64,000 nt of DNA, taken from the NCBI GenBank assembly GCA_019637915.1, contig JAHBUV010000001.1, forward strand, positions 682,001 to 746,000. Reading direction: 5' to 3'. The stretch comes from Pseudobdellovibrionaceae bacterium (GTDB lineage Bacteria; Bdellovibrionota; Bdellovibrionia; Bdellovibrionales; Bdellovibrionaceae). The translations under genes and the position numbers were made by a program. Below, piece by piece: positions 3,928 to 48,180 of the stretch. A model generated the notes under the pieces. It did no database searches and was not told the DNA's origin. It worked only from the letters and a program-made list of their open reading frames with translations. Position 1 is the first letter of the stretch. Each line of letters opens with the position of its first letter.

Positions 3928-4551
3928 TCATTTTAGTTTAAACCAGAAGAGGGCCTCCATCAATTGGCAGGTTTGCATGAAGTTGGAGATCACCGCCGGC
4001 AACTCCGCTTCGGGCAGATGACGAATGCGATCCAGGCTGGCCTCCGCCAGGTACTGGGCCGAATCCACGACGGAACGGACGTAGTGCGAAGCTTCCTCCC
4101 CGTACAGAGTCACCACCAGATCCAGCAACTCCGAAAAGCGCATCACGGCCAGGTTTTCCCAGGCGAAAATAAAGCCCAAGGGGGCGCTCGGCTGCTGGAG
4201 GAGTTTCGTCAGCTGCGGTTCCCACAAGGCCGCGGCCAGGGGAAGCGTCACGCGGCTTTCGGGATTTCCGCCCAAAGCGCGCACGTCCCGGAAGGCCAGG
4301 TCGGCGCGGCCGGCCTCCTGCCGGATGTGGGCGTAAAAATCCCGCCACAAGCCGCCGGCGCGGCGGCGGCAGGCCTCTTCGGTCTGCGACAAAACCTGAC
4401 CGAAGGAGGACTGCACGTGAAAACAATGCACCAGGAAATCCATGTAGAAATCTTTTTCCGCCCAGGGCAGCTCGAAAAACCCCTCCTGCAGGGGCCGCAT
4501 GGTTTTCTCGATCAGGGCGTCGGAGAAAATCAGGGGCTTCGCGGTTTTCAA
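3928..4551 (-). CDS. Haem-oxygenase-like fold protein lacking metal ligands (putative)
   Basis: This 207-residue all-helical protein can be aligned by eye with the diiron-type haem-oxygenase-like protein at 12566-13228 of this window. Shared landmarks are FYAHIRQ.....LAFRDVRALGG against FLDHCQE.....LFLNDLKALGY, a central IF.WEN / IFYLEG helix and similar C-terminal helices. The metal-ligand positions of the other copy (EExHH and HxxEDxxH) are replaced here by QEAGR and VVDSAQYL. It may therefore be a non-catalytic binding or signalling protein. Its start overlaps the stop of the upstream hybrid kinase by four bases (ATGA), so the two are translationally coupled and probably work together. Function is inferred only. 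Confidence 0.6.
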   Translation of the reverse strand: MKTAKPLIFSDALIEKTMRPLQEGFFELPWAEKDFYMDFLVHCFHVQSSFGQVLSQTEEACRRRAGGLWRDFYAHIRQEAGRADLAFRDVRALGGNPESRVTLPLAAALWEPQLTKLLQQPSAPLGFIFAWENLAVMRFSELLDLVVTLYGEEASHYVRSVVDSAQYLAEASLDRIRHLPEAELPAVISNFMQTCQLMEALFWFKLK

Positions 4552-6299
4552 TGCAGCACCGCTTGCGCCATGTGGGACACCATGCGCACCAGGTGGTGGC
4601 GGTCGATGGGTTTCGCCAGATGGCTGTTGCAGCCGCTGGCGAGGCTTTTCTCAACTTCCTCTTTGAACGCGTGGGCGGTCAGCGCCACGATGGGAATCTG
4701 ATAACCTTTGCCGCGCAGAACGCGGCAAGCCTCGTAACCGTCCATGATCGGCATTTGGATGTCCATCAACACCAGATGATAGTCGCCCGTGAGGGCCTTT
4801 TGCACGCCTTCTTCTCCGTTCGAGGCCACTTCCACGTCCGCCCCGGCATGGGTCAGGAAATGTCTCACCAAAAACTGATTATCCGCAGAGTCTTCCACCA
4901 GCAAAAGACGCAGGCCGCGCAAACTCGGCGACGCCGCGAAGCCAGCGCCTCCCGCCGACACCACCCGCGTCACCTCGTCCAGAACGCCCATCCAGTCGTG
5001 ATCCCCCAGCGAGGCCACGCCCAGCGTGCACAGGAAACTCGTGCCCACCCCGGGTTCGGACTCCAGTAGAGTCACGTCCCCGTCCATCAAGCGGCACAAG
5101 TGCCGGGACAGGGAAAGCCCCAGTCCCGTGCCGCCGAAGCGGCGCGAATGACCGGAGTCCGCCTGCGTGAAGGGGCGGAACAAACGGCCGGCCTGATCTT
5201 CCGTCAAACCGATGCCGGTGTCCTGCACCAGGACCGCCAGTTGGCCGATGTCGCTGCGATAGGACAGCCGCACGTTCACCTCGCCCTTCTCGGTGAACTT
5301 CACGGCGTTGCCGATCATGTTCCACAGCACCTGCCGCAGGCGCGTCGGATCCGACTGCACCCAGCGCGGGATCGGCGTCTCCAAAGCCAGCGTGAGGCGC
5401 ACGGATTTGTGGCGGGTCAAAGGCGTGAAGCTCTGCGAGACGTCCTGCAGGAGCAGGCCGAGGTCGACGGGCTGGGGACAGATCTCCAGGTGCCCGGTCT
5501 CCACTTTGGAGAGATCCAGGATCTCGTTGATGAGCCCCAGCAGGTGCGTGCCGTTGGCGCGGATTTTCTCGCCCCAGAAACGGTAATTCTCGGAGCTGTC
5601 CGGGGCATGAAGGATCAGGTCGACGAAACCGAGCACGGCCCCCAAGGGCGTGCGGATCTCATGGCTCATGTTGGCGAGGAATTCCGTTTTGGCGCGGCTG
5701 GCGATCTCCGCGGTCTTTTTCGCCTCGACCAGACGCTGCTCGGTGATTTTCAGGTTTTCGTACAAACGCGCGTTGTCCAGAGCGACGGCGGCCCGTTGGG
5801 CGATCTCTTCGGCGATGACTCGGTCCTCCCCACTGAAGGCGGGACTGCCGGCGTTGCGGAGGAAAACCAGGACCCCGGCGGTGTCGTGGCGCAGGCGCAA
5901 AGGGCAAAAGAGCACGGAACTGACCCGCTGGCGGCGCAAAAACGCGAGCTGTTCCCCACCGCTCGAAAACTCGGTCCATTTTTCATCCGTCAGGTTTTCC
6001 AAAAGAACCGCGCGGCCCGAGCGCAGAACGGGCTCCATGCCGTTCTCGTGACCGGTTTCCGGGAACCGGCCCAGAGACGAAGGTGAGGAAGCCATATGCC
6101 GCAGAACGCTTTGATCCTCGAGCATCCACACCGAGGCGCTGTCGGCGAGTTCGGGAATCACCAACTGGAACAAAGACTCCAGAGTCTGGCGCCCGCAAAG
6201 GGAGGACCCGACTTCCGCCGTGGCTCTGGCGAAAATCGACAACATCCTCTCCATGGAGCTGAACTCCCCGGGAGATGGTGCGTAAGCCCCCTCTTGCAT
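4548..6299 (-). CDS. GAF-domain hybrid histidine kinase with C-terminal receiver
   Basis: This is a cytoplasmic sensor kinase of 583 residues. A GAF-like domain spans about 20-175, a short coiled coil leads to HisKA with the phospho-acceptor His in NMSHEIRTPLG (about residue 213). The HATPase domain has DPTRLRQVLWNMIGNAVKFT, DTGIGL and GGTGLGLSLS. A C-terminal receiver carries the phospho-Asp in LVLMDIQMPIMDG and the later TAH and KP signatures. No membrane segment is seen, so the signal is probably intracellular. The ATG at 6299 follows AAGGAG with five bases of spacing, which favours it over an upstream ATG at 6341. It is coupled to the haem-oxygenase-like protein downstream. Confidence 0.9.
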   Translation of the reverse strand: MQEGAYAPSPGEFSSMERMLSIFARATAEVGSSLCGRQTLESLFQLVIPELADSASVWMLEDQSVLRHMASSPSSLGRFPETGHENGMEPVLRSGRAVLLENLTDEKWTEFSSGGEQLAFLRRQRVSSVLFCPLRLRHDTAGVLVFLRNAGSPAFSGEDRVIAEEIAQRAAVALDNARLYENLKITEQRLVEAKKTAEIASRAKTEFLANMSHEIRTPLGAVLGFVDLILHAPDSSENYRFWGEKIRANGTHLLGLINEILDLSKVETGHLEICPQPVDLGLLLQDVSQSFTPLTRHKSVRLTLALETPIPRWVQSDPTRLRQVLWNMIGNAVKFTEKGEVNVRLSYRSDIGQLAVLVQDTGIGLTEDQAGRLFRPFTQADSGHSRRFGGTGLGLSLSRHLCRLMDGDVTLLESEPGVGTSFLCTLGVASLGDHDWMGVLDEVTRVVSAGGAGFAASPSLRGLRLLLVEDSADNQFLVRHFLTHAGADVEVASNGEEGVQKALTGDYHLVLMDIQMPIMDGYEACRVLRGKGYQIPIVALTAHAFKEEVEKSLASGCNSHLAKPIDRHHLVRMVSHMAQAVLH

Positions 6300-6430
6300 C
6301 ACTTCTCCTTCGCAGAGATTATTCTCTAGCTGAGGAAACAAATTCCCACAAGAAGGAAATGCACGTTCTCCGTGAAGAGATTCGGATTTCAGAACATTGA
6401 TAAAAACAAACTTTTAATATTTTTCTTTTC

Positions 6431-6446
6431 CGGCGAGGAATCGCCG
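6431..6446. terminator. Short GC hairpin downstream of ThiF-like gene
   Basis: A CGGCGA / TCGCCG stem with GGAA loop is followed on the plus strand by a run of seven T. Minus-strand transcripts from the ThiF-like gene would meet the hairpin with an upstream A-run and only a purine-rich tail, so termination in that direction is uncertain. Confidence 0.4.
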
Positions 6447-6454
6447 CCTTTTTT

Positions 6455-7291
6455 TCAGGCGGCTTTCCGCGCCGGCAGAGGCATCGGCAATTCGCGGGCG
6501 CGGTAGGACGCCTCGAAAACGCGGACCTGCTGCTGAACGGGATCGACGAAGATCCCCTCCGGGGCGCGCACCCGCCGTCCCAATCCCAAAATATTTTTGG
6601 CGATTTCGGAGGCCGCGAAAGCCGCCGAGATCTCCCCTCCGGGAGTGATGAACGGGATGTAAGTGGAGCGATCAAGCGACTTGACCACTTGCTCCAGCAT
6701 GTAAGACGGGACTTCCGGAGCGATGAAGCGGAAAAACCGCTCGAGATTCTGCGGCAAGGGCGCTTCCGGCGTCATGCCGGTGAGCTCGGCGAAGGACGGC
6801 GTTTTCGGATCGAACACCACCATGCAGCCCGTGAACCCCAGCGTGGCGCAGGACACCACCGGCAAGCCGCGGCGGCGGGCCTCGGCGTTCAGCGCCAATT
6901 TATCCGGTAGAGCGAACAGATCGACCACGTCCACGACCCAGTCGACGCCCGTGAGGAAGGATTCCACGTTGGCGGGCTTCACGCCGTCGCGGAACACCTT
7001 GATCTGCACGTCGGGATTCACCGCCTTCGCCTCCTCGATCAGGCAATCGTCCTTGCGGCGACCGATGGTGGTTTCTTTCGCGAGGCGCTGGCGGTTGATG
7101 TTGGTGCGTTCGTAAATGTCCGGATCGGCGATGTGGAATTTCTCGAATCCCATGCGCGCGAGGTTGATGAAAATCGACCCGCCCAAGCCGAGACCCGCCA
7201 CGGCCACCGTGGTGTTCTTGAATGTCGCCAACTGCGATTCGGTGAGGATGCCGATGCTGCGCAAATAACGTTCCTTGTAGTCGGGTTTCAT
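6455..7291 (-). CDS. ThiF/MoeB/HesA-like E1 adenylyltransferase-fold protein
   Basis: The 278-residue protein has the E1-like Rossmann fold. The glycine-rich nucleotide loop VAVAGLGLGGSIF is near residue 30, acidic D.DIYERTNINRQRL follows with the arginine finger, and VDVVD contains the Asp expected for ATP/Mg contact. The Zn-binding CxxC pairs of MoeB/ThiF are absent, so the substrate is probably not a canonical ThiS/MoaD carrier. The start at 7291 has GGAGG eight bases upstream, whereas the ATG at 7330 has none. It is divergent from a GNAT-like acyl-synthase candidate 90 bases away, so the pair may share a promoter region and pathway. The reaction is unknown. Confidence 0.75.
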   Translation of the reverse strand: MKPDYKERYLRSIGILTESQLATFKNTTVAVAGLGLGGSIFINLARMGFEKFHIADPDIYERTNINRQRLAKETTIGRRKDDCLIEEAKAVNPDVQIKVFRDGVKPANVESFLTGVDWVVDVVDLFALPDKLALNAEARRRGLPVVSCATLGFTGCMVVFDPKTPSFAELTGMTPEAPLPQNLERFFRFIAPEVPSYMLEQVVKSLDRSTYIPFITPGGEISAAFAASEIAKNILGLGRRVRAPEGIFVDPVQQQVRVFEASYRARELPMPLPARKAA

Positions 7292-7380
7292 GCCGATGAC
7301 CTCCGTGTTTTTGGGATGCGGTGACTTCATCGGTCGTTTGCCGGAAAAAATAAATTAAATCATTTTATCAATCCGCCGAA

Positions 7381-8127
7381 ATGTGTGGCATGAAAAACCT
7401 GAAGATCGTGACATTGGACGCGCCCTGCCGCATCTGGACCGAGACCGGGGTCGCGCCCCTCTTCCAAAGTTTGATCGGCCTGAAACTGCGAGGTTACGGG
7501 GCGGAATACCCGTCCGGCGTGCTGGCCGTCGACACGACGGATTTTTTCGCCACCCACACCATCGTCGGATTTGAAAACAGCCAGGGTTTCCATCCCGTCA
7601 TGGCCGGCAAGACCACGACCCTTTCGCGCTGCGAACTCCACCAACAGAACTTTCCAGGTTTAGGTCTGGTGCAGGCGGCCGCGGCCCCCCGGCACGTCGC
7701 CGCCGTCGAGGGGATCATGCGGCGCTGCCGGGCCGAAGGGCGGGAGCTCGCCTATTTCGGCAGCTGGACCGTGGATCCGATCGTGCGCCGCGACCGTCCG
7801 ATGATCCGCTCCCTCCTCCAGCTGTTCATGGGACTTTATCACCTGAGCCACGAGGGGATCGACGAGATCCTGCTCGGCGGGACTTTGCGCTTTAAAACCG
7901 AAAGGACGTTCTCCGACCTGGGCCACCGCCCCTTGAGCCTCGACGGCGAGGAGCTGCCGAACATCCGCGTGAAGCACCTGTTCGGGGAGGACGTGCAGGT
8001 CATGCACCTGCGGGAATGGACGACGCGGGCCCGGGAAGCCGCCGAGGAGGCGCGTCCCCTCTGGGAAAACCGCCGCGTGCTCGCGCCCGTGTCGGTTCAG
8101 GCCGAAAGGCTGCCGCGCGCGGCCTGA
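7381..8127 (+). CDS. GNAT-like N-acyl synthase candidate (LuxI/FeeM-type), putative
   Basis: The 248-residue protein has no confident domain by eye, but its layout resembles GNAT-fold acyl synthases. There is an N-terminal beta-rich segment with VDTTDFFATHTIVGF and a central ELAYFGSWTVDPIVRRDRPM strand-loop-helix. Next comes a helical region with DEILLGGTLRFKTERTF and a final strand near HLFGEDVQVMHL. The order parallels the protein at 11803-12507 (SNLSIDPNRRG.., ELEIDAMTGTMR.., VPVDLLAVHPL). The start could also be the ATG at 7390 (MKNLKIV), since neither has a clear ribosome-binding site. Its 3' end overlaps a convergent V4R-type regulator by 31 bases. Product and substrate are unknown. Confidence 0.5.
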   Translation: MCGMKNLKIVTLDAPCRIWTETGVAPLFQSLIGLKLRGYGAEYPSGVLAVDTTDFFATHTIVGFENSQGFHPVMAGKTTTLSRCELHQQNFPGLGLVQAAAAPRHVAAVEGIMRRCRAEGRELAYFGSWTVDPIVRRDRPMIRSLLQLFMGLYHLSHEGIDEILLGGTLRFKTERTFSDLGHRPLSLDGEELPNIRVKHLFGEDVQVMHLREWTTRAREAAEEARPLWENRRVLAPVSVQAERLPRAA

Positions 8128-8130
8128 ACC
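8094..8130. terminator. Inverted repeat spanning both convergent stop codons
   Basis: Arms GGTTCAGGCC (8094-8103) and GGCCTGAACC (8121-8130) are perfectly complementary with a 17-base loop that itself contains GCCGCGCGC. The stop of the minus-strand regulator (8097-8099) sits in the left arm and the stop of the plus-strand gene (8125-8127) in the right arm. It may terminate both transcripts, though it has no T-tract. Confidence 0.5.
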
Positions 8131-8984
8131 GGCGTCCGGGTTTCGATCAGGAGGCGGCAGGCGTCGTCGCCGCGATGCTCGCAGGACAGCCGCGTCACCT
8201 TGGCCATCGGCAAACCGATGTACGCCGGCAACGACGCCCACATCCCCGCCTTGAGATGGCAGATCTGTTCGCTGCCGACATGCCGCACTTCCAGCGCCTG
8301 GGCCACGTCGGGGATGGTTTTCGACGTCAACAGGCCCTGCCGGGGGCTCAGCTGCTCGTAATGATAATGACAGTTCCGTTCGAACAACCAAATCACTTCG
8401 TTGAAAAACCGCGTGTACAGCTCCTCGAGGCTTTCCACGTCGCGCAGCGACTGCGCCACGACCGAATGGCGGTTGCCCTCGTAGGAGTAAGCGCCCATGG
8501 CGAAAAAATCCTGCTCGCGGAACAGTCGTTTGTGCAGATGATCGCAGATTTGCGTGATCAAACGGATGCTGATCGGCGCGAAGGCGTCCTGGAGCGCCGC
8601 CGCGCCCACGCCGAAACGGCGCAAAAGGTCGTCCTTCAGGCGCCAGCCGAATTGCCCCTCGAGATACTCGAGGGAAGTGATCGTCGTGCGGCTGCGGCCG
8701 TGCGCGCCCACCAGGAACTCCTCGGGCATGCGCTGACGGGAGAAGTCCCTGATCAATTCCTTGAAATCGACTTTCCCCTCGACCAGGCTTTGTTCGTCCA
8801 GGCGGAAATAGCGCGCCATGCGCTCGTAGCTCTTGCCGGGCAGCGTGCGGGTGCCGGCCATGAAGCGGCGATAGCCGTGCCAGGACATCCCCAGCAAATC
8901 CAACCACTCCGCCTCCGACAAATCCGACACCGAGCGCAGGCGCTCGACCCGATCGATTTGCTCAAAGACAAAAGAAGTTTGCAT
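8097..8984 (-). CDS. HTH plus V4R-like domain regulator (putative)
   Basis: The 295-residue protein starts with an HTH-like region (about 15-70: LSEAEWLDLLGMSWHGYRRF..., similar to an XRE-type fold) and then a helical linker. Its C-terminal domain ends in SCEHRGDDACRLLIE, the Cys-x-His-x-Gly-Asp-x-x-Cys pattern typical of V4R / haem-NO-binding-like small-ligand domains. This architecture suggests a one-component regulator that senses a small molecule. An inverted repeat GCCTA-N5-TAGGC lies 14 to 28 bases upstream of the start and may be its own operator. It converges on, and overlaps, the GNAT-like synthase candidate, a plausible source of its ligand; this link is inference. Confidence 0.6.
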   Translation of the reverse strand: MQTSFVFEQIDRVERLRSVSDLSEAEWLDLLGMSWHGYRRFMAGTRTLPGKSYERMARYFRLDEQSLVEGKVDFKELIRDFSRQRMPEEFLVGAHGRSRTTITSLEYLEGQFGWRLKDDLLRRFGVGAAALQDAFAPISIRLITQICDHLHKRLFREQDFFAMGAYSYEGNRHSVVAQSLRDVESLEELYTRFFNEVIWLFERNCHYHYEQLSPRQGLLTSKTIPDVAQALEVRHVGSEQICHLKAGMWASLPAYIGLPMAKVTRLSCEHRGDDACRLLIETRTPVQAARGSLSA

Positions 8985-8997
8985 GGGGGTGATTTTT

Positions 8998-9012
8998 GCC
9001 TATTTTTTAGGC
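8998..9012. promoter_or_regulatory. Candidate operator upstream of the V4R-type regulator
   Basis: The inverted repeat GCCTA-TTTTT-TAGGC lies 14 bases upstream of the minus-strand start at 8984, in an AT-rich stretch. Its position suits autoregulation. A further AAGCCT half-site lies near 9050. Confidence 0.4.
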
Positions 9013-9066
9013 TCAGCACAAGGCGCGTCCGCCTGCATTGAAAAAATAAGCCTGATTGTCAAAAGA

Positions 9067-10086
9067 TCAGACGTTCAGGGAGTCTTCTTCGCGGCGCGGG
9101 AGGTTTTTCCCGGAATCCGCTTCTTTCCCCAGTGATTCAAAATATTTTCGCGGATAAACAAGAACAGGACAGGTCGCGCCGCGGATCACCCGCCGGGTCA
9201 GACTGCCCAGAATGGCCGAGATGACGGGACCGCTCTGGGCGGACATGACGATCAGGCTGATCTCCCGCCGGCGGCTGGCCTCCAGAATGGTGTTTTCAAC
9301 CCCCGCGCCGCTTTCATCGATCATGTAATCGGCGGCGATGCCGTCCCTCAGGGCCCATTCCGTCCAGGCCTCGGCGCGTTCCGTCTGATGTTTGATCTGA
9401 TCCTCCAGGATCTGGCGCAGGCTCACGAACTCGCCCTGGTACTCATAAAGCCGGGAGTGCGCCTCCAGATCCACTCCCCCCTCGATGGGCGGGGCGACGG
9501 CGTGGAACAGGGTCAGGTGGGCCCCCCACTGGTTCGACAGGCGCATGGTCTGGCGGAAGGCGCTTTTCGCGTGATCGCCGAAGTCCGTGGCCAGAAGGAT
9601 GTGCGGCTTGGCCGGCCATTTTTTCGCGTGGGCCCCGAAAACGAACACCGGGGTTTCCGAATGGAACAACAGGGACTCGGCGAAACTGCCGACGAAAAAG
9701 CGCTCGACCCCCGTGCGCCCGTGGCTGCGCACCACCAGGGCGTCGGCCCGCTGGGATTTGGCGTAGGAGGCGAAGAAGCTCACGGCCTCTTCGATGTTGG
9801 TCGCGGAGTGCACGATCACCTGGGGCTCCTCCAGGAAAGGCGCCCGCGATTTGTCGGGGAGGATCTCTTTCAAACGCCGCTCGGCGGCTTTGCGGACTTC
9901 CGGCATCCAGGCCGGATCGCCGTAGAGCCGTGGCAAAGGCAGGGCCGATTCCACCGGACCCAGGATGTAGACCGGAGTCACGCGGATGGGGGAAACCTGA
10001 GCCAGGGATTTCAAGCTCTCCAGCACCGCGCGATTTCCCGTCACCGGTTCTTCGAAGGCATCGACGGCCCAAATCAAGTGTTCCAT
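9067..10086 (-). CDS. Tandem universal stress protein (UspA family)
   Basis: The 339-residue protein consists of two UspA-like domains in tandem. The first (about 1-150) starts MEHLIWAVDAF and ends with ALVVRSHGRTGVERFFVGSF followed by SETPVFVFG. The second (about 155-315) starts HILLATDFGDHAKSAF and ends with SLIVMSAQSGPVISAILGSLTRR and CPVLVYP. The G-x2-G-x9-G-S/T ATP-binding pattern is recognisable in the first domain and degraded in the second. The start at 10086 is preceded by AAGGGG. Such proteins bind nucleotides or metabolites during stress. It is monocistronic as far as can be seen. Confidence 0.85.
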   Translation of the reverse strand: MEHLIWAVDAFEEPVTGNRAVLESLKSLAQVSPIRVTPVYILGPVESALPLPRLYGDPAWMPEVRKAAERRLKEILPDKSRAPFLEEPQVIVHSATNIEEAVSFFASYAKSQRADALVVRSHGRTGVERFFVGSFAESLLFHSETPVFVFGAHAKKWPAKPHILLATDFGDHAKSAFRQTMRLSNQWGAHLTLFHAVAPPIEGGVDLEAHSRLYEYQGEFVSLRQILEDQIKHQTERAEAWTEWALRDGIAADYMIDESGAGVENTILEASRRREISLIVMSAQSGPVISAILGSLTRRVIRGATCPVLVYPRKYFESLGKEADSGKNLPRREEDSLNV

Positions 10087-10178
10087 CACGCGGCCCCTTC
10101 TCATCAAGAAAATGGTAAACCGCGTGCCGGCACCGGGCACATGGAGAATTCACGAAATCCGCGGCCGGCGGCGGACCC

Positions 10179-11093
10179 TTAAAATTTGGCGATGATCGTG
10201 AGGCCCCAATCGATCGTGTCGAAAGCGAAGACCCGGGACTCCGCGGTGAACAGCGAGCCCGAGGCGTCCGCATGGCTCACGGAACTGATCATATAAGGGT
10301 TCAGCAACACGGAGCCGACCGTCCAGCTCGCGCCGACCTCGTGGTAAGCGCCGTTGATGGCGTCCGCGCGCCAGATCCCCCGCTGCGCGTCCGTGGAAGC
10401 CACGTCCGCGTAATAGGCGTAGTAGCCGCTCAGGCCGTCGCGGAAAGCGTAGTTCAAAGAGGGGATCAGCATGACACGGTAATATTCCGCGTCCGCACCG
10501 CGAGCCGTTTTCGGATTTTCACTGCTGTTCAACAGGACCCGCGACGACACCAGACCCCCCACGGACCAGCGCGGGCTCAGCATCCATTCCGTGGAGGTGT
10601 CCAGGCGGAACAGGCCGTTCTCTTTTTGCAGCTGCGCCACCCGGTCCGTCGGTGCGTAATACTGCAGGTCGAAAACGACCGGTTTGGAGCCGCCGAGAAC
10701 CACCTTGGATCCGTGGATCGCCCGCAGCATCAGGTCCGCCATCTCGATGGCGCCGTCATGGGCCAGGCGGGCCCGACCCGTCAGGCGCTCGTGATTGCTG
10801 GCGTACTCCATGCGGGGCCTGAGCTCGAAGGTGGTCGAGTCGGAAGCTTTGTAAATTAAACCGATTCCATTCACTGAGCGGACCGGGGCTTGCGCGCCCC
10901 ACTCATCCAGCGCTTTGGCGTTGGCCATGTTCTCCGAAATCAGGCTCACCGACCAACGGCGGGCCGCGGCGGGGTTTTCCATGATCAGACGGGCTTCCGC
11001 CGCCGGCAGCTCGGCGACCGAACTGTCCTCCTGGGCCCGCGCCATGGACGATACGACGGCAAAAGCCAGAAACAAGGCGCTTGGCAGCTTCAT
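10179..11093 (-). CDS. Outer-membrane beta-barrel protein
   Basis: The 304-residue protein has a signal peptide (MKLPSALFLAFAVVSSMARA) and then alternating amphipathic strands with aromatic girdles such as YYRVMLIPSLNYAFRDGLSGYYAYY. It ends in a terminal phenylalanine (GLTIIAKF), the usual C-terminal outer-membrane insertion signal. AGGGG precedes the ATG with suitable spacing. No enzyme motif is visible. It probably forms a barrel of 10 to 12 strands, and its role as porin, receptor or structural protein is unknown. Confidence 0.75.
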   Translation of the reverse strand: MKLPSALFLAFAVVSSMARAQEDSSVAELPAAEARLIMENPAAARRWSVSLISENMANAKALDEWGAQAPVRSVNGIGLIYKASDSTTFELRPRMEYASNHERLTGRARLAHDGAIEMADLMLRAIHGSKVVLGGSKPVVFDLQYYAPTDRVAQLQKENGLFRLDTSTEWMLSPRWSVGGLVSSRVLLNSSENPKTARGADAEYYRVMLIPSLNYAFRDGLSGYYAYYADVASTDAQRGIWRADAINGAYHEVGASWTVGSVLLNPYMISSVSHADASGSLFTAESRVFAFDTIDWGLTIIAKF

Positions 11094-11173
11094 TCGGATT
11101 CCCCTCCCGTTGAGCTTTGATGATGAGCCTTGTGAAAAGGCCCGCTCTTGTCAATGATGAATCGCCCCGGCGC

Positions 11174-11521
11174 CTATTCCTCCGAGGGAACGCGCAGGAC
11201 CGGCCGCGGGACCGGGGTGCCGATATCGCCTTCCGGCAGCTGGCGGATGCGGAAAAGGGGAACCCGGTGGAATTCCTCGTCCGCGCCGTGGGCGACGATG
11301 CAGGTGATGTCCTCCTCGACGGGGCCGGAGGTGAAAAACTCGTAAGTCAGGAACCAGCTGCCGTCGGAATAGCTGCGCAGCATGCGGAAACGCTCGCCCT
11401 GACGGCCGCGCAGTCCGGCGCGGTGGGAGGCCCGCTCCGGAATCGTTTTTTCGATGTATTGGATGACGTTGTCGGCGTAACCGCAGCCCAGCATCAAAGC
11501 CGCCGTGATGTAGGAAACCAT
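11174..11521 (-). CDS. Small exported hypothetical protein
   Basis: The 115-residue product starts with a short hydrophobic segment ending in LMLGCGYADN, which could be a lipobox (C13) or a signal peptide. The rest is soluble with mixed charge and holds one further cysteine (DITCIVAHG). The ATG follows GGAGG at ten bases. It is divergent from the GNAT-like gene at 11803 across a 280-base region. I do not recognise a family. Confidence 0.55.
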   Translation of the reverse strand: MVSYITAALMLGCGYADNVIQYIEKTIPERASHRAGLRGRQGERFRMLRSYSDGSWFLTYEFFTSGPVEEDITCIVAHGADEEFHRVPLFRIRQLPEGDIGTPVPRPVLRVPSEE

Positions 11522-11802
11522 TTTTCGTCAACCTCCAAACAAAAAATTGAGAATTGTCTCATTGCCGCCCGGAAAAATCCGGTCAGGAGAAAACTCCGTT
11601 GCTCGCGGATCATTAAATAACGTTTACCGGACAAGATCAAGTGGGCCAGGTCCAGGTGCGTCGTCTCAAAAAATGTTTGTAAACTTAATTCATGAAGTTT
11701 CCGACATGAACACAAAGAGACATGGATTTTCACGAAAACGAGCGCAGGTGGCGCTGGGTGCCCTCCCGCGCGCCGGTTCCACAACCCGAACAAGGAGCAC
11801 AA
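11522..11802. other. Divergent intergenic region (no gene seen)
   Basis: These 281 bases separate the small exported protein (-) and the GNAT-like gene (+). The stretch is AT-richer than its surroundings around 11670-11720 (AAAAAATGTTTGTAAACTTAATTCATG) and ends with AAGGAG five bases before the ATG at 11803. It probably holds both promoters. No strong inverted repeat was found. Confidence 0.4.
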
Positions 11803-12507
11803 ATGAAGAACGTCCTCTGTAAACTTGTGGTTCTGCCTGGGTCCAACCCAGATGAGTCCGTCAGACCTTATTATGAGCGCGCTTACACCCACTGGGAAAG
11901 CGTGTGGGGAGCGACCTTTCAGGAGCTTGACGGGAAAAGTCGGATTTTTTCCGACAATTTCACCCGCCAGCATGAAATCCATGCCCTTTTTGAAGACCTT
12001 AACTGCGTCGCCATGTGTGGACTGCGCTACTACGACTTCCGCACGACAACACCCCGCAAGGATTCCTACTTCGAAGCCTGGTCGGAGGACGCCTTGGACC
12101 AGCTGGTCCGTTATGGGAAACGTGTCGTGATCGCCAGCAACCTCTCCATTGACCCGAACCGCCGCGGCCGCGAAGCCACGGGCGGTCAATACAATCTTAA
12201 GGATCTGATCATCGCCACGACCTTGCGCCGGATCGGTGAACTTGAAATCGACGCCATGACCGGAACCATGCGCGTCGATAAAAACATGCAGGGCCTGATT
12301 TACCAGGCCGGCGGAGTCCCTATCCAACGCGAGGTCATTTATCACAACGTGCCGGTCGACCTCTTGGCCGTGCACCCCTTGCGGAAAAAACCCCTGTTGC
12401 CCTCGGGTCTCGATGAGATGACCCAGGAACTGTGGGACAACGCCCGTGGCACTGGCCCGCTGGATCACCTCCTGCTGCCGAAAACCGCCGCGCGTCGCGT
12501 GGCCTGA
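11803..12507 (+). CDS. GNAT-fold N-acyl synthase candidate (LuxI/FeeM-like), putative
   Basis: The 234-residue protein shows the layout of GNAT-fold acyl synthases of the autoinducer / N-acyl amino acid synthase type. FSDNFTRQHEIHALFEDL is followed by VAMCGLRYYDF, then DSYFEAW, a strand RVVIASNLSIDPNRRG, and helix DLIIATTLRRIGELEIDAM with a pantetheine-loop-like turn, ending in VPVDLLAVHPL. The start at 11803 is five bases after AAGGAG; a longer frame exists but lacks a site. It lies 58 bases upstream of an intact haem-oxygenase-like diiron protein on the same strand, suggesting that an acylated product is then oxidised. Family assignment is tentative. Confidence 0.55.
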   Translation: MKNVLCKLVVLPGSNPDESVRPYYERAYTHWESVWGATFQELDGKSRIFSDNFTRQHEIHALFEDLNCVAMCGLRYYDFRTTTPRKDSYFEAWSEDALDQLVRYGKRVVIASNLSIDPNRRGREATGGQYNLKDLIIATTLRRIGELEIDAMTGTMRVDKNMQGLIYQAGGVPIQREVIYHNVPVDLLAVHPLRKKPLLPSGLDEMTQELWDNARGTGPLDHLLLPKTAARRVA

Positions 12508-12565
12508 AGACTCCGCGAGGAATAAACTGAATCATCTTTACCAAAGAACTTTGAAGGAGCATCAC

Positions 12566-13228
12566 ATGTCGAAACCAAAAAAAGCCAGCGACCAACTGTT
12601 CACCACCCACGACGAACTGCTGACGACCCTGGACCGTATTTTCAAGGACTCTCCCTGGGAGGATCCGCGCTTTTACGCCCAATGGTGCGGGCAGTTCTTT
12701 TACTTCGTCGCCCATGCCACGCGTCTGTTGGCCGCCTCGGCCGCACGCCTGGATCTCACGAACGATCCTTTGCACATCCGCTTTCTTGATCACTGCCAGG
12801 AGGAAAAGCACCACGAACAGCTCTTCCTGAATGACCTGAAGGCTTTGGGCTACCGCATCGAGGATTTGCCGGAGTTCCCGATGACAGCGCAGCTTTATCA
12901 GTCGCAGTACTACCTGATCGACTACAAGGATCCCATCGCGCTCTTCGGCAGCATCTTCTATCTAGAGGGTATGTCGCTGACTTCAGGACCGGAGGTCTAT
13001 GAGCGCGTGAAGAAAGCGCATGGCGATGCCGCCACGACCTTCCTGCGCGTCCACGTCTCCGAAGACATGGATCACATTGAGAAGGCCAAGGCCGCTCTCC
13101 GGCAGTTGAGCGATCGTCAATTGGAAATCGTCGAATGGAGTCTGAAGCAAACGGCCTCGATCTACGAAGCCATCATGAAAGAAACGCTGGCGACTTATCA
13201 TCGCCTGGAAAACAAAAAGGCCGCTTGA
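12566..13228 (+). CDS. Iron-containing redox enzyme, haem-oxygenase-like diiron fold
   Basis: The 220-residue all-helical protein keeps the metal-ligand motifs of the haem-oxygenase-like diiron oxidase superfamily: DHCQEEKHHEQ (E-x-x-H type, about residue 75) and HVSEDMDHIEKA (H-x-x-E-D-x-x-H, about 170), plus a central FYLEGM helix. Known members oxidise or fragment amino-acid or fatty-acid-like substrates using O2. AAGGAG lies six bases before the ATG. It follows the GNAT-like synthase in what looks like a two-gene operon, so its substrate could be that enzyme's acylated product. The actual substrate is unknown. Confidence 0.75.
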   Translation: MSKPKKASDQLFTTHDELLTTLDRIFKDSPWEDPRFYAQWCGQFFYFVAHATRLLAASAARLDLTNDPLHIRFLDHCQEEKHHEQLFLNDLKALGYRIEDLPEFPMTAQLYQSQYYLIDYKDPIALFGSIFYLEGMSLTSGPEVYERVKKAHGDAATTFLRVHVSEDMDHIEKAKAALRQLSDRQLEIVEWSLKQTASIYEAIMKETLATYHRLENKKAA

Positions 13229-13936
13229 TCAGAGAAAGTGAACCGATTCTTTTCTGATTTCCGGTTCCTGATAAACTTTGGCTTTCTGGATCACCAGGAA
13301 GCCAAAGTACTTTTGAGGCCAAACAAACAACGGGAACATGTAGCGGAACTCAACCTGAAAAACGCCACGATCTTCGGAGAACAATTCGCGCATCAGATGC
13401 TTAGGGATATTCGAGACCGGTAGACCTTCATGCATATCCACCTCGGCGACGCGGCCGACGGCTTCGAACATCATACCGTTGATTTGCTGACTGCGTTCAT
13501 ACAGCTCATGGAACTCATGGGTCAAGAGCTCCAACAAAGTGTAATTACAGATACTCATGAAGCCCATGCCGCGATAAACCTGGACGAGATCCTTGCTATA
13601 AATCTCGATGATGTCATCTTTCTCAATGAGGGAATACACGGATTCGGAAATGATCAGATTCATGTTCCGGATCACTTGACGCAGCAAACGGGACTCACTG
13701 TTCAGCGCTTCCGGATCTGAGCTCAGGGCTCCCGAAACGAGCTCATAATAACCAGCCAACGCTTTCAATAGTTCTTGTTGTCGAGAAACTGCCAAGGATT
13801 TGAATTTGTCGTATCCACGCTGACTCCAAACTCGCTCCAAGGGGAGGCGATCACCGAATAAAGAAGAAAGTCGGCTCAATTCACCCACCAACTTCGCATC
13901 CGCTCCTGAATTTTGCATTTCTTCCACCAGCAACAT
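13229..13936 (-). CDS. Conserved-looking hypothetical protein, possibly sensory
   Basis: The 235-residue protein has no domain I can name. The first 90 residues are helical (LVGELSRLSSLFGDRLPLERVW...). The middle contains a hydrophobic helix pair around GFMSICNYTLLELLTHEFHEL. The C-terminal 100 residues alternate strands and helices (VSNIPKHLMRELFSEDRGVFQVEFRYMFPLFVW...FGFLVIQKA), which could be a degenerate GAF or PAS-like domain. GGAGG lies just upstream of the ATG. Its stop abuts the stop of the diiron enzyme gene. Codon use is AT-richer than in the neighbours. Confidence 0.55.
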   Translation of the reverse strand: MLLVEEMQNSGADAKLVGELSRLSSLFGDRLPLERVWSQRGYDKFKSLAVSRQQELLKALAGYYELVSGALSSDPEALNSESRLLRQVIRNMNLIISESVYSLIEKDDIIEIYSKDLVQVYRGMGFMSICNYTLLELLTHEFHELYERSQQINGMMFEAVGRVAEVDMHEGLPVSNIPKHLMRELFSEDRGVFQVEFRYMFPLFVWPQKYFGFLVIQKAKVYQEPEIRKESVHFL

Positions 13937-45679: not shown

Positions 45680-46214
45680 GGGAAAATTGAATGAGCTCGC
45701 ACTCATCGGAGAGGCCTTAAAAGAAGAACGTCGTCTTTTAGGCATGACACAGGCGCAAGCGGCCCGTCAGTTTAAAATAAGCCTCAAGGCTCTGCGCAAT
45801 CTTGAGCAGGGATACGGAGGAGTGACCCTCGCCACGGCATCTCAAATCCTTGAGTATATGGGAAAGCAGCTGAGGGTTGGTGACATCATCGCCAGTCCGG
45901 CAAACCAGCCCATGAAGAGACCACGGCGGAAGCAAATTCTGGAAACACTTGAGCTGGTGAAGCCTGTCTTGCAGAAAAAGTTCTCCGTCGACAAGATCGC
46001 TTTGTTCGGAAGCTGCGCCCGCGATGAAGCAACTAAAAATTCCGATATTGATCTCGCGATCCATTTTTCAAAGCCGCCCACCTTCAGCTCCCTGGGAAGA
46101 CTCACGGTTTTTCTGGAGGCCCTCTTTGACGGAAGGAAAACGGACATCGTCGAATTCAAGAAGATGATTCCCGAAGTCGCCACCAAGGCAAAACGGGATT
46201 TCATCTATGTCTAA
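45678..46214 (+). CDS. mntA: MntA-type nucleotidyltransferase antitoxin with N-terminal HTH
   Basis: The 178-residue protein combines an XRE-like HTH (about 20-65; MTQAQAARQFKISLKALRNL) with a minimal nucleotidyltransferase domain with the GSx10DxD motif (GSCARDEATKNSDID, residues 111-125) and a third Asp in KTDIVEF. Such enzymes AMPylate their HepT partner and so neutralise it. The HTH probably binds the two palindromes upstream. I start at 45678, since upstream TTG 45621 lies inside the first palindrome region. It overlaps hepT by eight bases. Confidence 0.85.
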   Translation: MGKLNELALIGEALKEERRLLGMTQAQAARQFKISLKALRNLEQGYGGVTLATASQILEYMGKQLRVGDIIASPANQPMKRPRRKQILETLELVKPVLQKKFSVDKIALFGSCARDEATKNSDIDLAIHFSKPPTFSSLGRLTVFLEALFDGRKTDIVEFKKMIPEVATKAKRDFIYV

Positions 46215-46578
46215 ATCGAAGGAATACAAAGACAGCTCCGTTTACCTGCGGGAAATGCAAAGGGCCTGTCAAAAAATCAACGAATACGTGCAGCGAACCA
46301 CCGAAAAAGAGTTTCTCCAGTGTCTCGAGTCCTACGATGCTATCTGCATGCAATTCTCGCAGTTGGGTGAACAAGTGAGTTTGCTGGAGAAGCATACCGA
46401 CAAAATCATCTCTCATTTCCCGGATGAAGTGGATTGGCCCGCGATCAAAGCGCTCAGAAACAGAATTGATCACGCCTACGCCACAATCGACGCCGTGATG
46501 ATTTGGAATTTCGCCAAAGAGGACTTGGCTGAAATCGAGCATGCGGTGGCCCGAATTCTGAAGAAAAGATATGGGTAG
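46207..46578 (+). CDS. hepT: HepT-type HEPN toxin (DUF86)
   Basis: The 123-residue helical protein is of the DUF86/HepT type. The RNase motif Rx4HxY is present as RNRIDHAY (Arg84, His89, Tyr91), and the Tyr is the AMPylation target in studied HepT proteins. It would cleave RNA unless modified by the MntA partner. The start overlaps the antitoxin end by eight bases. Base composition is AT-richer than the flanking chromosome, consistent with transfer. Confidence 0.85.
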   Translation: MSKSKEYKDSSVYLREMQRACQKINEYVQRTTEKEFLQCLESYDAICMQFSQLGEQVSLLEKHTDKIISHFPDEVDWPAIKALRNRIDHAYATIDAVMIWNFAKEDLAEIEHAVARILKKRYG

Positions 46579-46616
46579 TCATGACGAATGAACAAAGTCA
46601 TTCAAACGACAATCCG

Positions 46617-46711
46617 TGAATCTCTTAATTGAAAGCGAAAACGAGCCCTGAAGGACTTCAACGGTCGTTTTCGATTGTTCGCTGGGATTTCCACTTGGAA
46701 AAAGTGGCGGG
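46617..46711. repeat. Direct repeat B, copy 1 (tRNA-Asp trailer copy)
   Basis: These 95 bases match 49107-49201, the region immediately 3' of tRNA-Asp. The last 68 bases differ by one substitution only. The repeat ends exactly where the tRNA acceptor stem begins; beyond it the sequence GTCGTATGGGACGAG resembles the tRNA end only weakly. Confidence 0.8.
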
Positions 46712-46866
46712 TCGTATGGGACGAGTTTAGAACTCAATATAGTGGCTAAACGTTTGAATAGCTTTAGAGGCAGATAAGAGCACCACGTACTCCTCTAATG
46801 CCTTACAATAAGCGTCAATATCAGCTATTGATGACTCTCCTATAAGTAAGCCCTATAGTTTTATTG
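46712..46866. other. AT-rich leader of the second MNT/HEPN pair
   Basis: This is AT-rich non-coding sequence between repeat B copy 1 and the MNT gene. It contains an imperfect T-arm-like hairpin (GAGTTTAGAACTC near 46724) and probable promoter sequence. No gene was recognised. Confidence 0.35.
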
Positions 46867-47187
46867 ATGGCCGTAGTTGACGAAAAACTCCAACACATTA
46901 TCCAAACTCTGAAACAAGAGTTTCAGCCAAAAAGGATTTTACTTTTTGGTTCCAGAGGACGTGGCGATCACCATGCTCATAGTGACTATGACCTCGTGTT
47001 GGTAGGGGCTATATCCTCTCTTTCTAAAATAGAAAGAATGCAGCGAGCTTCCGATCTTCTTTATCCCCTCGGCGTAACTGCCGACGTCTTTTTCTATTCC
47101 GAAGAAGAGTTCAATGATTGGAAGACCGAGTTCAGCTCTATTCCTGAAGTCGCCTCACGCGAAGGTCGGGAGTTGGATCTTGGCTAA
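46867..47187 (+). CDS. MNT-type minimal nucleotidyltransferase (antitoxin)
   Basis: The 106-residue minimal nucleotidyltransferase has the GSx10DxD motif (FGSRGRGDHHAHSDYDLVLV, Gly28-Ser29 and Asp40/Asp42) and a third Asp in TADVFFY. It has no HTH domain, unlike the first antitoxin. It is followed by a HEPN protein, so it should be the antitoxin of a second MNT/HEPN module. The ATG at 46867 is used, although a TTG three bases upstream is in frame. No clear ribosome-binding site is present. Confidence 0.8.
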   Translation: MAVVDEKLQHIIQTLKQEFQPKRILLFGSRGRGDHHAHSDYDLVLVGAISSLSKIERMQRASDLLYPLGVTADVFFYSEEEFNDWKTEFSSIPEVASREGRELDLG

Positions 47188-47575
47188 GTCAAAGATGGTA
47201 GATCTTTGGCTCAAAAAAGCGGGGCGTGATTTACGTTTCTCGAAAGCCGCAATGACTTTGGATGAACAGTTCTTTGATGAAATCGTTTTTCATTGCCAGC
47301 AGTCCGTTGAAAAATCCATCAAGGCGTTCCTCACTTTTCATAAAGAACCCTTTGGGAAAACTCATGACATCGGCGAGCTTTTATTATCGGTTGCCAAGAT
47401 CGACCCGAATCTTGCGCAGCTTTTAGATTCATCAAAAATTCTGTCCAAATACGCTGTCGCCATCCGCTATCCTGATGCCCAAGGATTGGATATCGTCATT
47501 GACGGCGAAACTGCAAATCAAAGCCTTACCCTTGCGGATGCCGTTTATGTGGAACTGAGCGCAAGAATTAAGTAG
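47180..47575 (+). CDS. HEPN-domain protein (toxin partner)
   Basis: The 131-residue helical protein is of the HEPN (PF05168-like) type: LAKSKMVDLWLKKAGRDLRF, FHCQQSVEKSIKAFLTFH, FGKTHDIGELL and AVAIRYPDA. The classical Rx4-6H motif is not obvious. The TTG at 47180 follows GGGAG with seven bases of spacing and gives an eight-base overlap with the antitoxin, as in the MntA/HepT pair; ATG 47195 is the alternative start. Likely a ribonuclease or nucleic-acid-binding partner. Confidence 0.75.
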   Translation: MAKSKMVDLWLKKAGRDLRFSKAAMTLDEQFFDEIVFHCQQSVEKSIKAFLTFHKEPFGKTHDIGELLLSVAKIDPNLAQLLDSSKILSKYAVAIRYPDAQGLDIVIDGETANQSLTLADAVYVELSARIK

Positions 47576-47639
47576 CTATGAAAATCGCCTTCATATTTTT
47601 TTAGTCTCCAAAATATGCCTTGCGAAAGACTGCTCACGA

Positions 47640-47771
47640 ATGAAGCCATTCAATCCGAATGGAAAGATCGCCAGCAAATTGACGAAGATATTTGCACAGG
47701 ATTTTGAAGAAGCTGTTAAAACCTGGCCTACCAATAGCACAGATGCATATTTCATCCGTGCTGAATTTTAA
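47640..47771 (+). CDS. Possible 43-residue small protein
   Basis: A short frame starts MKPFNPNGKIASKLTKIF and ends RAEF, only eight bases before a hairpin terminator. The composition looks protein-like (amphipathic, with Trp and Tyr), but there is no ribosome-binding site, and the frame is open further upstream without a start codon, so it could be a remnant of a longer gene. Confidence 0.35.
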   Translation: MKPFNPNGKIASKLTKIFAQDFEEAVKTWPTNSTDAYFIRAEF

Positions 47772-47778
47772 AAATAAA

Positions 47779-47803
47779 AAAGGAAGCCTTTCGGGCTTCC
47801 TTT
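47779..47803 (+). terminator. Hairpin terminator after the MNT/HEPN module
   Basis: A 10-bp stem AAAGGAAGCC / GGCTTCCTTT with loop TTTCG has flanking A and T runs and works in both directions. It ends the plus-strand MNT/HEPN transcript. Confidence 0.75.
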
Positions 47804-47913
47804 AATTATTCAATCATCGTGGGATTAGACCATCTGATTTTAAATCAAAATGGCGGACCACCCGCCAGCCAGGACAACCTTTTCCCTCCAGCGAATCCTC
47901 CTCAACATAGCAT

Positions 47914-48180
47914 CTATGCTGCTTCGATTGGGGACGTTGTTGAGAGCACCTTCGGCCTTTCGACTATATCGAGCTTGATGTAGAGGTCGTAAGCCTGAGC
48001 TCGAAGATCGCCGAGAATCATTGACAGTCCAATCGATGCGTCGTGTTCCTCTCGCGCCGAGCACTGGGACTCGGGTTGGTATCCCTCAAGCAAACGCTGA
48101 ATTCCGTGAAGCTTGTAAGACAAATCGAGCGCTGTGCTCTGAAGATCACTGTAATAGTCGTCATGGGTTTTCTCGGTCAT
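47914..48180 (-). CDS. Small hypothetical protein
   Basis: The 88-residue, mostly helical protein starts MTEKTHDDYYSDLQSTALDL. It has no recognised family and no membrane segment. It has an unusually good ribosome-binding site for this region (AAGGAGG six bases before the ATG), which is the main argument that it is expressed. It lies on the minus strand of the accessory island and is possibly cargo of the inserted element. Confidence 0.6.
   Translation of the reverse strand: MTEKTHDDYYSDLQSTALDLSYKLHGIQRLLEGYQPESQCSAREEHDASIGLSMILGDLRAQAYDLYIKLDIVERPKVLSTTSPIEAA

Follow-up and report, generated by a model that had tools for sequence, protein, structure and literature searches.

Two candidate acyl-signal or acyl-metabolite modules in a Pseudobdellovibrionaceae genome and their relatives across the Bdellovibrionota

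Introduction

Do neighbouring genes for acyltransferases, a ThiF-like enzyme, a haem-oxygenase-like diiron protein and candidate sensors form one pathway or several, and could their product be a signal? The question is raised by a locus in the 3.3 Mb genome of a Pseudobdellovibrionaceae bacterium. The window, that is the whole 64,000-nucleotide stretch analyzed (contig JAHBUV010000001.1, positions 682,001 to 746,000), holds two sets of genes between positions 3928 and 13936, counted from its first letter, which are parted by genes for UspA, a beta-barrel-like protein and a small exported protein. A previous sequence-only reading of the window had proposed that two GNAT-type proteins, an E1-like adenylyltransferase, a diiron enzyme and an HTH-V4R regulator make up one new pathway. 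All the genes it named were found where it had placed them, together with three that it did not describe: a PAS gene (13229-13936), a hybrid histidine kinase gene (4548-6341) and a haem-oxygenase-like gene that lacks most metal ligands (3928-4551).

The window most likely holds two separate modules, 2.8 kb apart and close by happenstance, rather than a single pathway. Module A (11803-13936) consists of the acyltransferase GNAT2, the diiron protein and the PAS protein X7; module B (3928-8984) consists of the acyltransferase GNAT1, the ThiF-like enzyme, the HTH-V4R protein, the kinase and the second haem-oxygenase-like protein, P0006. The interpretation favored here, with somewhat better than even confidence, is that these are two independent acyl-signal (or acyl-metabolite) modules, each with a synthase, a tailoring enzyme and a sensor. 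They most likely belong to a family found throughout the phylum, its synthases being akin to those of LuxI and oxazolone systems and its tailoring enzymes and sensors being different.

Gene neighborhoods and distribution

The occurrence of the families was assessed in 241 Bdellovibrionota genomes, neighbors of module A genes being counted within 3.5 kb. GNAT2 is present in 85 genomes (34 of the 60 relatives examined in a first survey), X7 in 78, the diiron family in 116 and GNAT1 in 52. A diiron gene lies near 83 of 106 GNAT2 matches and X7 near 68 of them, 51 of 69 GNAT2-X7 pairs having their genes on opposite strands, and GNAT2 is found near 84 of the 93 best diiron matches in the phylum. 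Comparison of 40 loci around GNAT matches (38 around GNAT2, 2 around GNAT1) revealed that the diiron gene and X7 adjoin the synthase in most, a common arrangement being synthase, then oxidase, then converging X7, with 4-base overlaps. A profile search of genome contigs with the diiron protein, built from six closer sequences, returned 18 loci. An acyl synthase adjoins the diiron gene in all 14 loci from Bdellovibrionota (GNAT2 in 12, a GNAT1-type protein in 2), and X7 is also present in 13 of these, the remaining locus being broken by a contig end.

Examples of module A occur in Bdellovibrio bacteriovorus kdesi, Bdellovibrio sp. qaytius and a plasmid of Bdellovibrio sp. HM001. The module on this plasmid (pBdHM1, locus L129) is complete, its synthase, oxidase and X7 all being annotated as hypothetical, and its location implies that module A can be mobile between strains. 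GNAT2, diiron and X7 genes number four each in one genome (G043, locus L040), where a distance of 3 kb separates two complete modules.

The 22 GNAT1 loci analyzed (window, L020 and L086-L105) have a different set of neighbors. An HTH-V4R gene occurs in 20 of them, usually convergent and with a short overlap, and ThiF in 12. Kinases of the same BLAST group as that of the window, with GAF or other domains, lie near GNAT1 in 14, which is weaker evidence than that of V4R because the BLAST group is linked through the kinase domains. A gene for a pyridoxal phosphate-dependent enzyme is added in four loci (L020, L086, L088 and L089), and others hold methyltransferase, acyl-CoA dehydrogenase or alpha/beta-hydrolase genes. 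Given the conserved V4R, ThiF and kinase neighbors and these enzyme genes, the module B set behaves as a biosynthetic locus that includes its regulators. UspA, the barrel and the exported gene did not emerge as recurrent partners. Each acyltransferase has a set of conserved neighbors of its own, kept in many genomes, which is more than chance.

Elsewhere, in the genomes examined, the modules lie apart. In one genome (G002) GNAT1-ThiF-V4R lies near 323 kb and GNAT2-diiron-X7 near 1.82 Mb of a single contig, roughly 1.5 Mb away, and loci of one module mostly occur without the other. In three loci (L021, L065 and L098) a GNAT1-type synthase is accompanied by a diiron gene, with X7 in place of V4R. 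The separation in G002 and these mixed combinations indicate that synthases, tailoring enzymes and sensors recombine and that the closeness of A and B in the window is not conserved, which in turn suggests separable roles. That all six or more genes constitute one pathway, each synthase acting on what the other makes, would fit the short distance between the modules in the window genome; confronted with their separation elsewhere and the prevalence of loci with one module only, it is largely refuted and we give it almost no credence. The proposal of the sequence-only reading that its four protein types form one pathway is therefore not sustained, as elsewhere they split into GNAT2 with diiron and PAS proteins and GNAT1 with HTH-V4R, often with ThiF. 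The co-occurrence of partners across genomes, which that reading had proposed to look for by neighborhood analysis, was nevertheless recovered within each of the two groups.

Module A: candidate synthase, diiron protein and PAS protein

The encoded proteins were analyzed by Pfam domain scans, hhalign profile comparison, AlphaFold2 modeling and Foldseek searches of the PDB, using family sets of 24 GNAT1, 40 GNAT2, 32 diiron, 6 close ThiF, 36 X7 and 18 V4R sequences. GNAT2 (11803-12507, forward strand), the proposed signal synthase of module A, was modeled with its own relatives at a predicted local distance difference test score (pLDDT) of 86. The best Foldseek matches of the model are BjaI (E 6e-7) and FeeM (E 7e-7), followed by RpaI, EsaI and LasI, and GNAT2 is thus predicted to have the fold of these solved acyl-signal synthases, in agreement with the earlier suggestion of a GNAT fold to be sought among LuxI/FeeM structures. 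Only this fold comparison was informative among the structure comparisons of the GNATs, PDB searches with single GNAT1 or GNAT2 proteins and with their profiles having returned chance matches only. The Pfam FeeM model matched neither GNAT2 nor any of its 40 relatives, and a search of viral contigs with GNAT2 found nothing. A 770-residue protein encoded in locus L120 (5065-7377) combines a GNAT2-like region with an FAD-binding region (FAD_binding_4).

The gene that follows (12566-13228, forward strand) encodes the haem-oxygenase-like diiron protein (Haem_oxygenas_2, Pfam, E 2e-12), the proposed tailoring oxidase. Its six-ligand set (E81, H84, E135, H164, D168 and H171) is invariant in 32 relatives, bearing out the intact ligands ascribed to it earlier, and its profile matches 3dde and MboA in the PDB. 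By these residues the protein has the six His/carboxylate ligands that characterize the haem-oxygenase-like diiron oxidase superfamily. Two relatives from other phylogenetic groups occur in distinct contexts. In a Hyphomicrobiaceae metagenome-assembled genome (L077, 5797-7456) the very next gene after that of a diiron relative ending in RRRAA encodes a FeeM-family GNAT that scores above the Pfam cut-off and ends in MAA. In Oxalobacteraceae (L073, 3184-7913; also L074 and L075) a relative is flanked by an RpfC-like hybrid kinase on one side and an RpfF-like crotonase on the other, the latter matching the RpfF model at E 1e-72, under the cut-off of that model, and ending in LAAA.

X7 (13229-13936, reverse strand) is a protein of 235 residues with a helical N-terminal domain and a PAS-like C-terminal half. 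Its AlphaFold2 model has a pLDDT of 85, and nearly all of its top 50 Foldseek matches in the PDB are PAS or LOV domains with a probability of 1.00, so that a PAS fold is predicted. No Pfam family was matched in any of the 36 X7 members. More than half of the X7 genes (78 of 150, up to five per genome) have no synthase nearby, and these stand-alone sites share no common neighbor. Genomes of one genus (g6; L112, L113, G177, G206, G234 and relatives) carry up to seven X7 genes each, some as tandem pairs, and one to three synthases.

Module B: candidate synthase and sensors with a ThiF-like enzyme

GNAT1 (7381-8127, forward strand; start probably at 7390), proposed as a FeeM-like signal synthase, aligns with GNAT2 over 199 columns in profile comparison (hhalign probability 95.8, E 7e-9). 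Judged from these profiles, it is a distant homologue of GNAT2, and in this manner the second of the two GNAT-type proteins of the sequence-only reading was recovered. The Pfam FeeM model scores 13.2 bits on it against a cut-off of 27 (E 0.076) and gives one weak match (E 0.0066) among its 24 relatives. As GNAT1 and GNAT2 both fail this cut-off, each is better described as FeeM-like by fold than as a FeeM.

The ThiF/E1-like adenylyltransferase (6455-7330, reverse strand) matches Pfam ThiF at E 1e-33, and comparison with homologues places its start probably at 7291. It has cysteines at positions 96, 161 and 169 only and hence lacks the CxxC zinc pair, as had been noted before; its adenylation residues, D134 and D137 included, are invariant in six close homologues. 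Proteins 58-67% identical to it are encoded divergently to GNAT1 in L020 and L086-L089, the same layout as in the window. Its best relative outside Bdellovibrionota, found in a plasmid collection, is a 989-residue Nitratidesulfovibrio protein that unites FeeM (E 5e-44), ThiF (E 6e-49) and nitroreductase domains in a single chain. This fusion ties the ThiF clade of the window to FeeM synthases.

The proposed one-component sensor of module B (8097-8984, reverse strand) converges on GNAT1 with a 31-base overlap and is the sole V4R match in the whole host genome. A V4R domain is detected in 7 of its 18 relatives (E <= 0.01) and the family profile matches XRE-type HTH chains (3op9, E 1e-6), so that the protein combines a V4R domain, seen in relatives, with a DNA-binding domain. 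A second candidate sensor is the hybrid histidine kinase (4548-6341, reverse strand), in which Pfam recognizes GAF, HisKA, HATPase and receiver domains in this order. Its gene overlaps by 4 bases that of P0006 (3928-4551, reverse strand), a peripheral member of the module that iterated profile searches identified as a homologue of the module A diiron protein. P0006 retains E81 and E135 of the ligand set and has replaced the others (H84 by R, H164 by V, D168 by A and H171 by L), and could be a pseudoenzyme with a ligand-binding or regulatory function.

Promoter-like sites were not commoner than in shuffled sequences, and terminator-like sites, scored by consensus only, were slightly in excess (19 versus 13 +/- 3.6). 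A segment at 46001-48000 has a GC content of 45%, as compared to about 60% in the rest of the window, and possibly represents acquired DNA.

C-terminal tails of the enzymes

The enzymes of both modules tend to have (K/R)xAA tails; in the window the ends are PRAA in GNAT1, RKAA in ThiF, KKAA in the diiron protein and RRVA in GNAT2. Terminal AA was found in 18 of 24 GNAT1, 14 of 40 GNAT2, 16 of 32 diiron and 4 of 6 close ThiF proteins, versus none of 36 X7 and 18 V4R proteins and 48 of 806 other open reading frames of the same loci. These controls are mechanically called frames, some of which may not be genes, and the homologues are non-independent, though most share only 15-40% identity. The expectation from alanine content is below 1%. 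Position weights give (K/R)-(K/I/R)-A-A, and the tail-bearing enzymes span three unrelated folds.

Terminal Ala-Ala is the main recognition element of ClpXP (PMC7652416), and a natural C-terminal degron of this kind has been demonstrated experimentally in bacterial aldehyde decarbonylases (PMC7325246). The transfer-messenger RNA tag of the host genome is ANDNYALAA, and in the GNAT2 model residues 225-234 have a pLDDT below 50, meaning that the tail is disordered. Terminal Ala-Ala on a flexible tail corresponds to a C-degron of the ClpXP type, which the tails of both modules' enzymes likely resemble. An action of ThiF on the AA tails, comparable to that on ubiquitin-like tails, was also considered and was dropped, given that module A enzymes bear the tail in the absence of any ThiF.

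Such tails also bear on the possibility that the modules make structural acyl-amino-acid membrane lipids of the ornithine-lipid type under stress-linked control. GNATs of related fold make lipids, a UspA gene lies nearby, and the synthase relative of Hyphomicrobiaceae weakly matches the ornithine N-acyltransferase model (E 2e-4). This match is, however, far under the cut-off (20.8 versus 320 bits), no second acyltransferase of the OlsA/GlsA type was seen in the module, and the likely degrons would be ill-suited to enzymes of bulk lipid synthesis, making this alternative improbable.

Proposed mechanism and alternatives

For the two modules, the following scheme is proposed. Each GNAT would transfer an acyl chain onto an amino acid or amine, the donor being acyl-CoA or acyl-ACP. 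The mycobacterial enzymes TyzA and TrzA form N-acyl amino acids, their ATP-dependent cyclization being the work of ThiF-type TyzB or of the ThiF domain of TrzS and their desaturation that of a flavin oxidase (PMC10404671, PMC12856293). In module B, the ThiF-like enzyme would similarly adenylate the carboxylate of the N-acyl product, which would then cyclise. Because the first two of these functions are represented by homology and the accompanying oxidase is missing, we infer that the output is a cyclised acyl amino acid, oxazolone-like or otherwise. This product would be read by the convergent HTH-V4R regulator and possibly also by the GAF hybrid kinase. The diiron protein of module A would oxidise the acyl product by desaturation, hydroxylation or oxidative cleavage, and X7 would sense the result and, lacking a DNA-binding domain, act via a partner. 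The tails, present on synthases and tailoring enzymes and not on sensors, probably shorten enzyme life via a Clp-type protease, allowing production to stop quickly.

A signaling role is favored by the consistent pairing of sensors with synthases, by the contexts of the diiron relatives in L077 and L073 and by the likely degrons. The 78 lone X7 genes would fit receptors that outnumber synthases, as is the case with orphan receptors.

Several observations weigh against this interpretation. The PAS/LOV matches of X7 have a best E of only 2e-3, none being under 0.001, and X7 has no recognizable DNA-binding or output domain. Of the earlier HTH-V4R description, the HTH part stands by profile match, and the V4R part stands through relatives, the window protein itself scoring below the Pfam cut-off (E 2e-4). 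The GNAT fold of GNAT1 is a putative one, read from the profile comparison with GNAT2. Adenylating E1 proteins can act in other pathways. No conserved operator-like dyad or repeat was found in the ThiF/GNAT1 intergenic regions of six genomes. Synthase-sensor co-evolution was not singled out by partial correlation (0.17 for GNAT2-X7 versus 0.23 for diiron-X7), a test based on pairwise distance correlation with distances near saturation.

A regulated metabolite without a signaling role is a serious rival. The modules would in that case make N-acyl amino acid natural products with antimicrobial, predatory or surface-active functions, the V4R, PAS and kinase proteins sensing stress, metabolic state or the like. 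Stieleriacines, thalassotalic acids and tyrazolones are known as metabolites, some of them antimicrobial, no receptor being shown for them (PMC12479983, PMC12856293); the methyltransferase, acyl-CoA dehydrogenase, alpha/beta-hydrolase or pyridoxal phosphate-dependent enzyme genes of some GNAT1 loci likewise look like a biosynthetic cluster. Set against this are the pairing of two sensor types with two synthase clades, the excess of stand-alone sensors over synthases in some genomes and the sharing of one tailoring family by the diffusible signal factor (DSF)-type locus and the FeeM-type loci. On balance we consider this explanation less likely and retain the two acyl-signal modules as the preferred one.

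Implications

A broader proposal, put forward tentatively and with less than even confidence, is that Bdellovibrionota possess a phylum-wide acyl-signal family whose LuxI/FeeM-fold synthases come with exchangeable tailoring enzymes, diiron or ThiF, and with X7 or HTH-V4R receptors, a shared C-terminal degron serving to time the enzymes. If so, these would be receptor types with no earlier tie to LuxI/FeeM-fold synthases, and acyl-oxazolone-type compounds, whose role is a major unresolved question according to their discoverers (PMC12856293), would gain a receptor as well as a role, perhaps that of controlling the change between attack and growth phase. It would also define chemical-communication genes for predatory Bdellovibrio and relatives, for which a literature search found no acyl signal. 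The consistent pairing of a FeeM-like synthase and ThiF with a one-component regulator makes a signaling role testable in a single genome, and further enzymes of such pathways could be sought simply by the shared AA tail. The contexts described also suggest that the haem-oxygenase-like diiron family modifies signals in at least three settings.

Comparison with known systems

Literature searches for such gene sets, and for V4R proteins with an acyltransferase, haem-oxygenase-like enzymes or N-acyl amino acids in Bdellovibrio, found no description. Partial likenesses to characterized systems are nonetheless evident. As in LuxI/LuxR and in BjaI and RpaI systems, a synthase of this fold adjoins a candidate ligand sensor. 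In contrast to LuxI/LuxR, no LuxR-type regulator was identified beside the synthases, the neighbors being HTH-V4R and a PAS protein without a DNA-binding domain, and tailoring enzymes are added. The module A diiron protein shares with MboA (mangotoxin) and 3dde a profile match and the complete ligand set, and differs in its association with LuxI/FeeM-fold synthases and a PAS protein. The placement of the Oxalobacteraceae diiron relative between RpfC-like and RpfF-like genes recalls RpfF/RpfC, yet neither was identified in the window modules, whose synthases are GNATs.

The loci for stieleriacines, thalassotalic acids and kyonggic acid resemble module B in that ThiF lies close to an N-acyl amino acid synthase; those of S. 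neptunia and S. maiorica carry a methyltransferase, as do some GNAT1 loci; in contrast, stieleriacine-type loci carry a nitroreductase, and the available part of the report mentions no V4R or PAS sensor and no diiron gene for them (PMC12479983).

Module B also resembles OxzAB, TyzACB and TrzAS, in which, as in the window, L020 and L086-L089, a FeeM-like N-acyltransferase adjoins a ThiF-type enzyme. The ThiF adenylation core is shared, and in tyz, as in the window, synthase and ThiF occupy opposite strands. Module B differs from these systems in having no adjacent or fused flavin oxidase of the nitroreductase superfamily. Stand-alone flavin oxidases (FDOs) have about 340 residues (PMC10404671); the host genome encodes three nitroreductases in open frames of 202-275 residues, none near the locus. 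Where those systems have a flavin oxidase, module B has a conserved HTH-V4R regulator.

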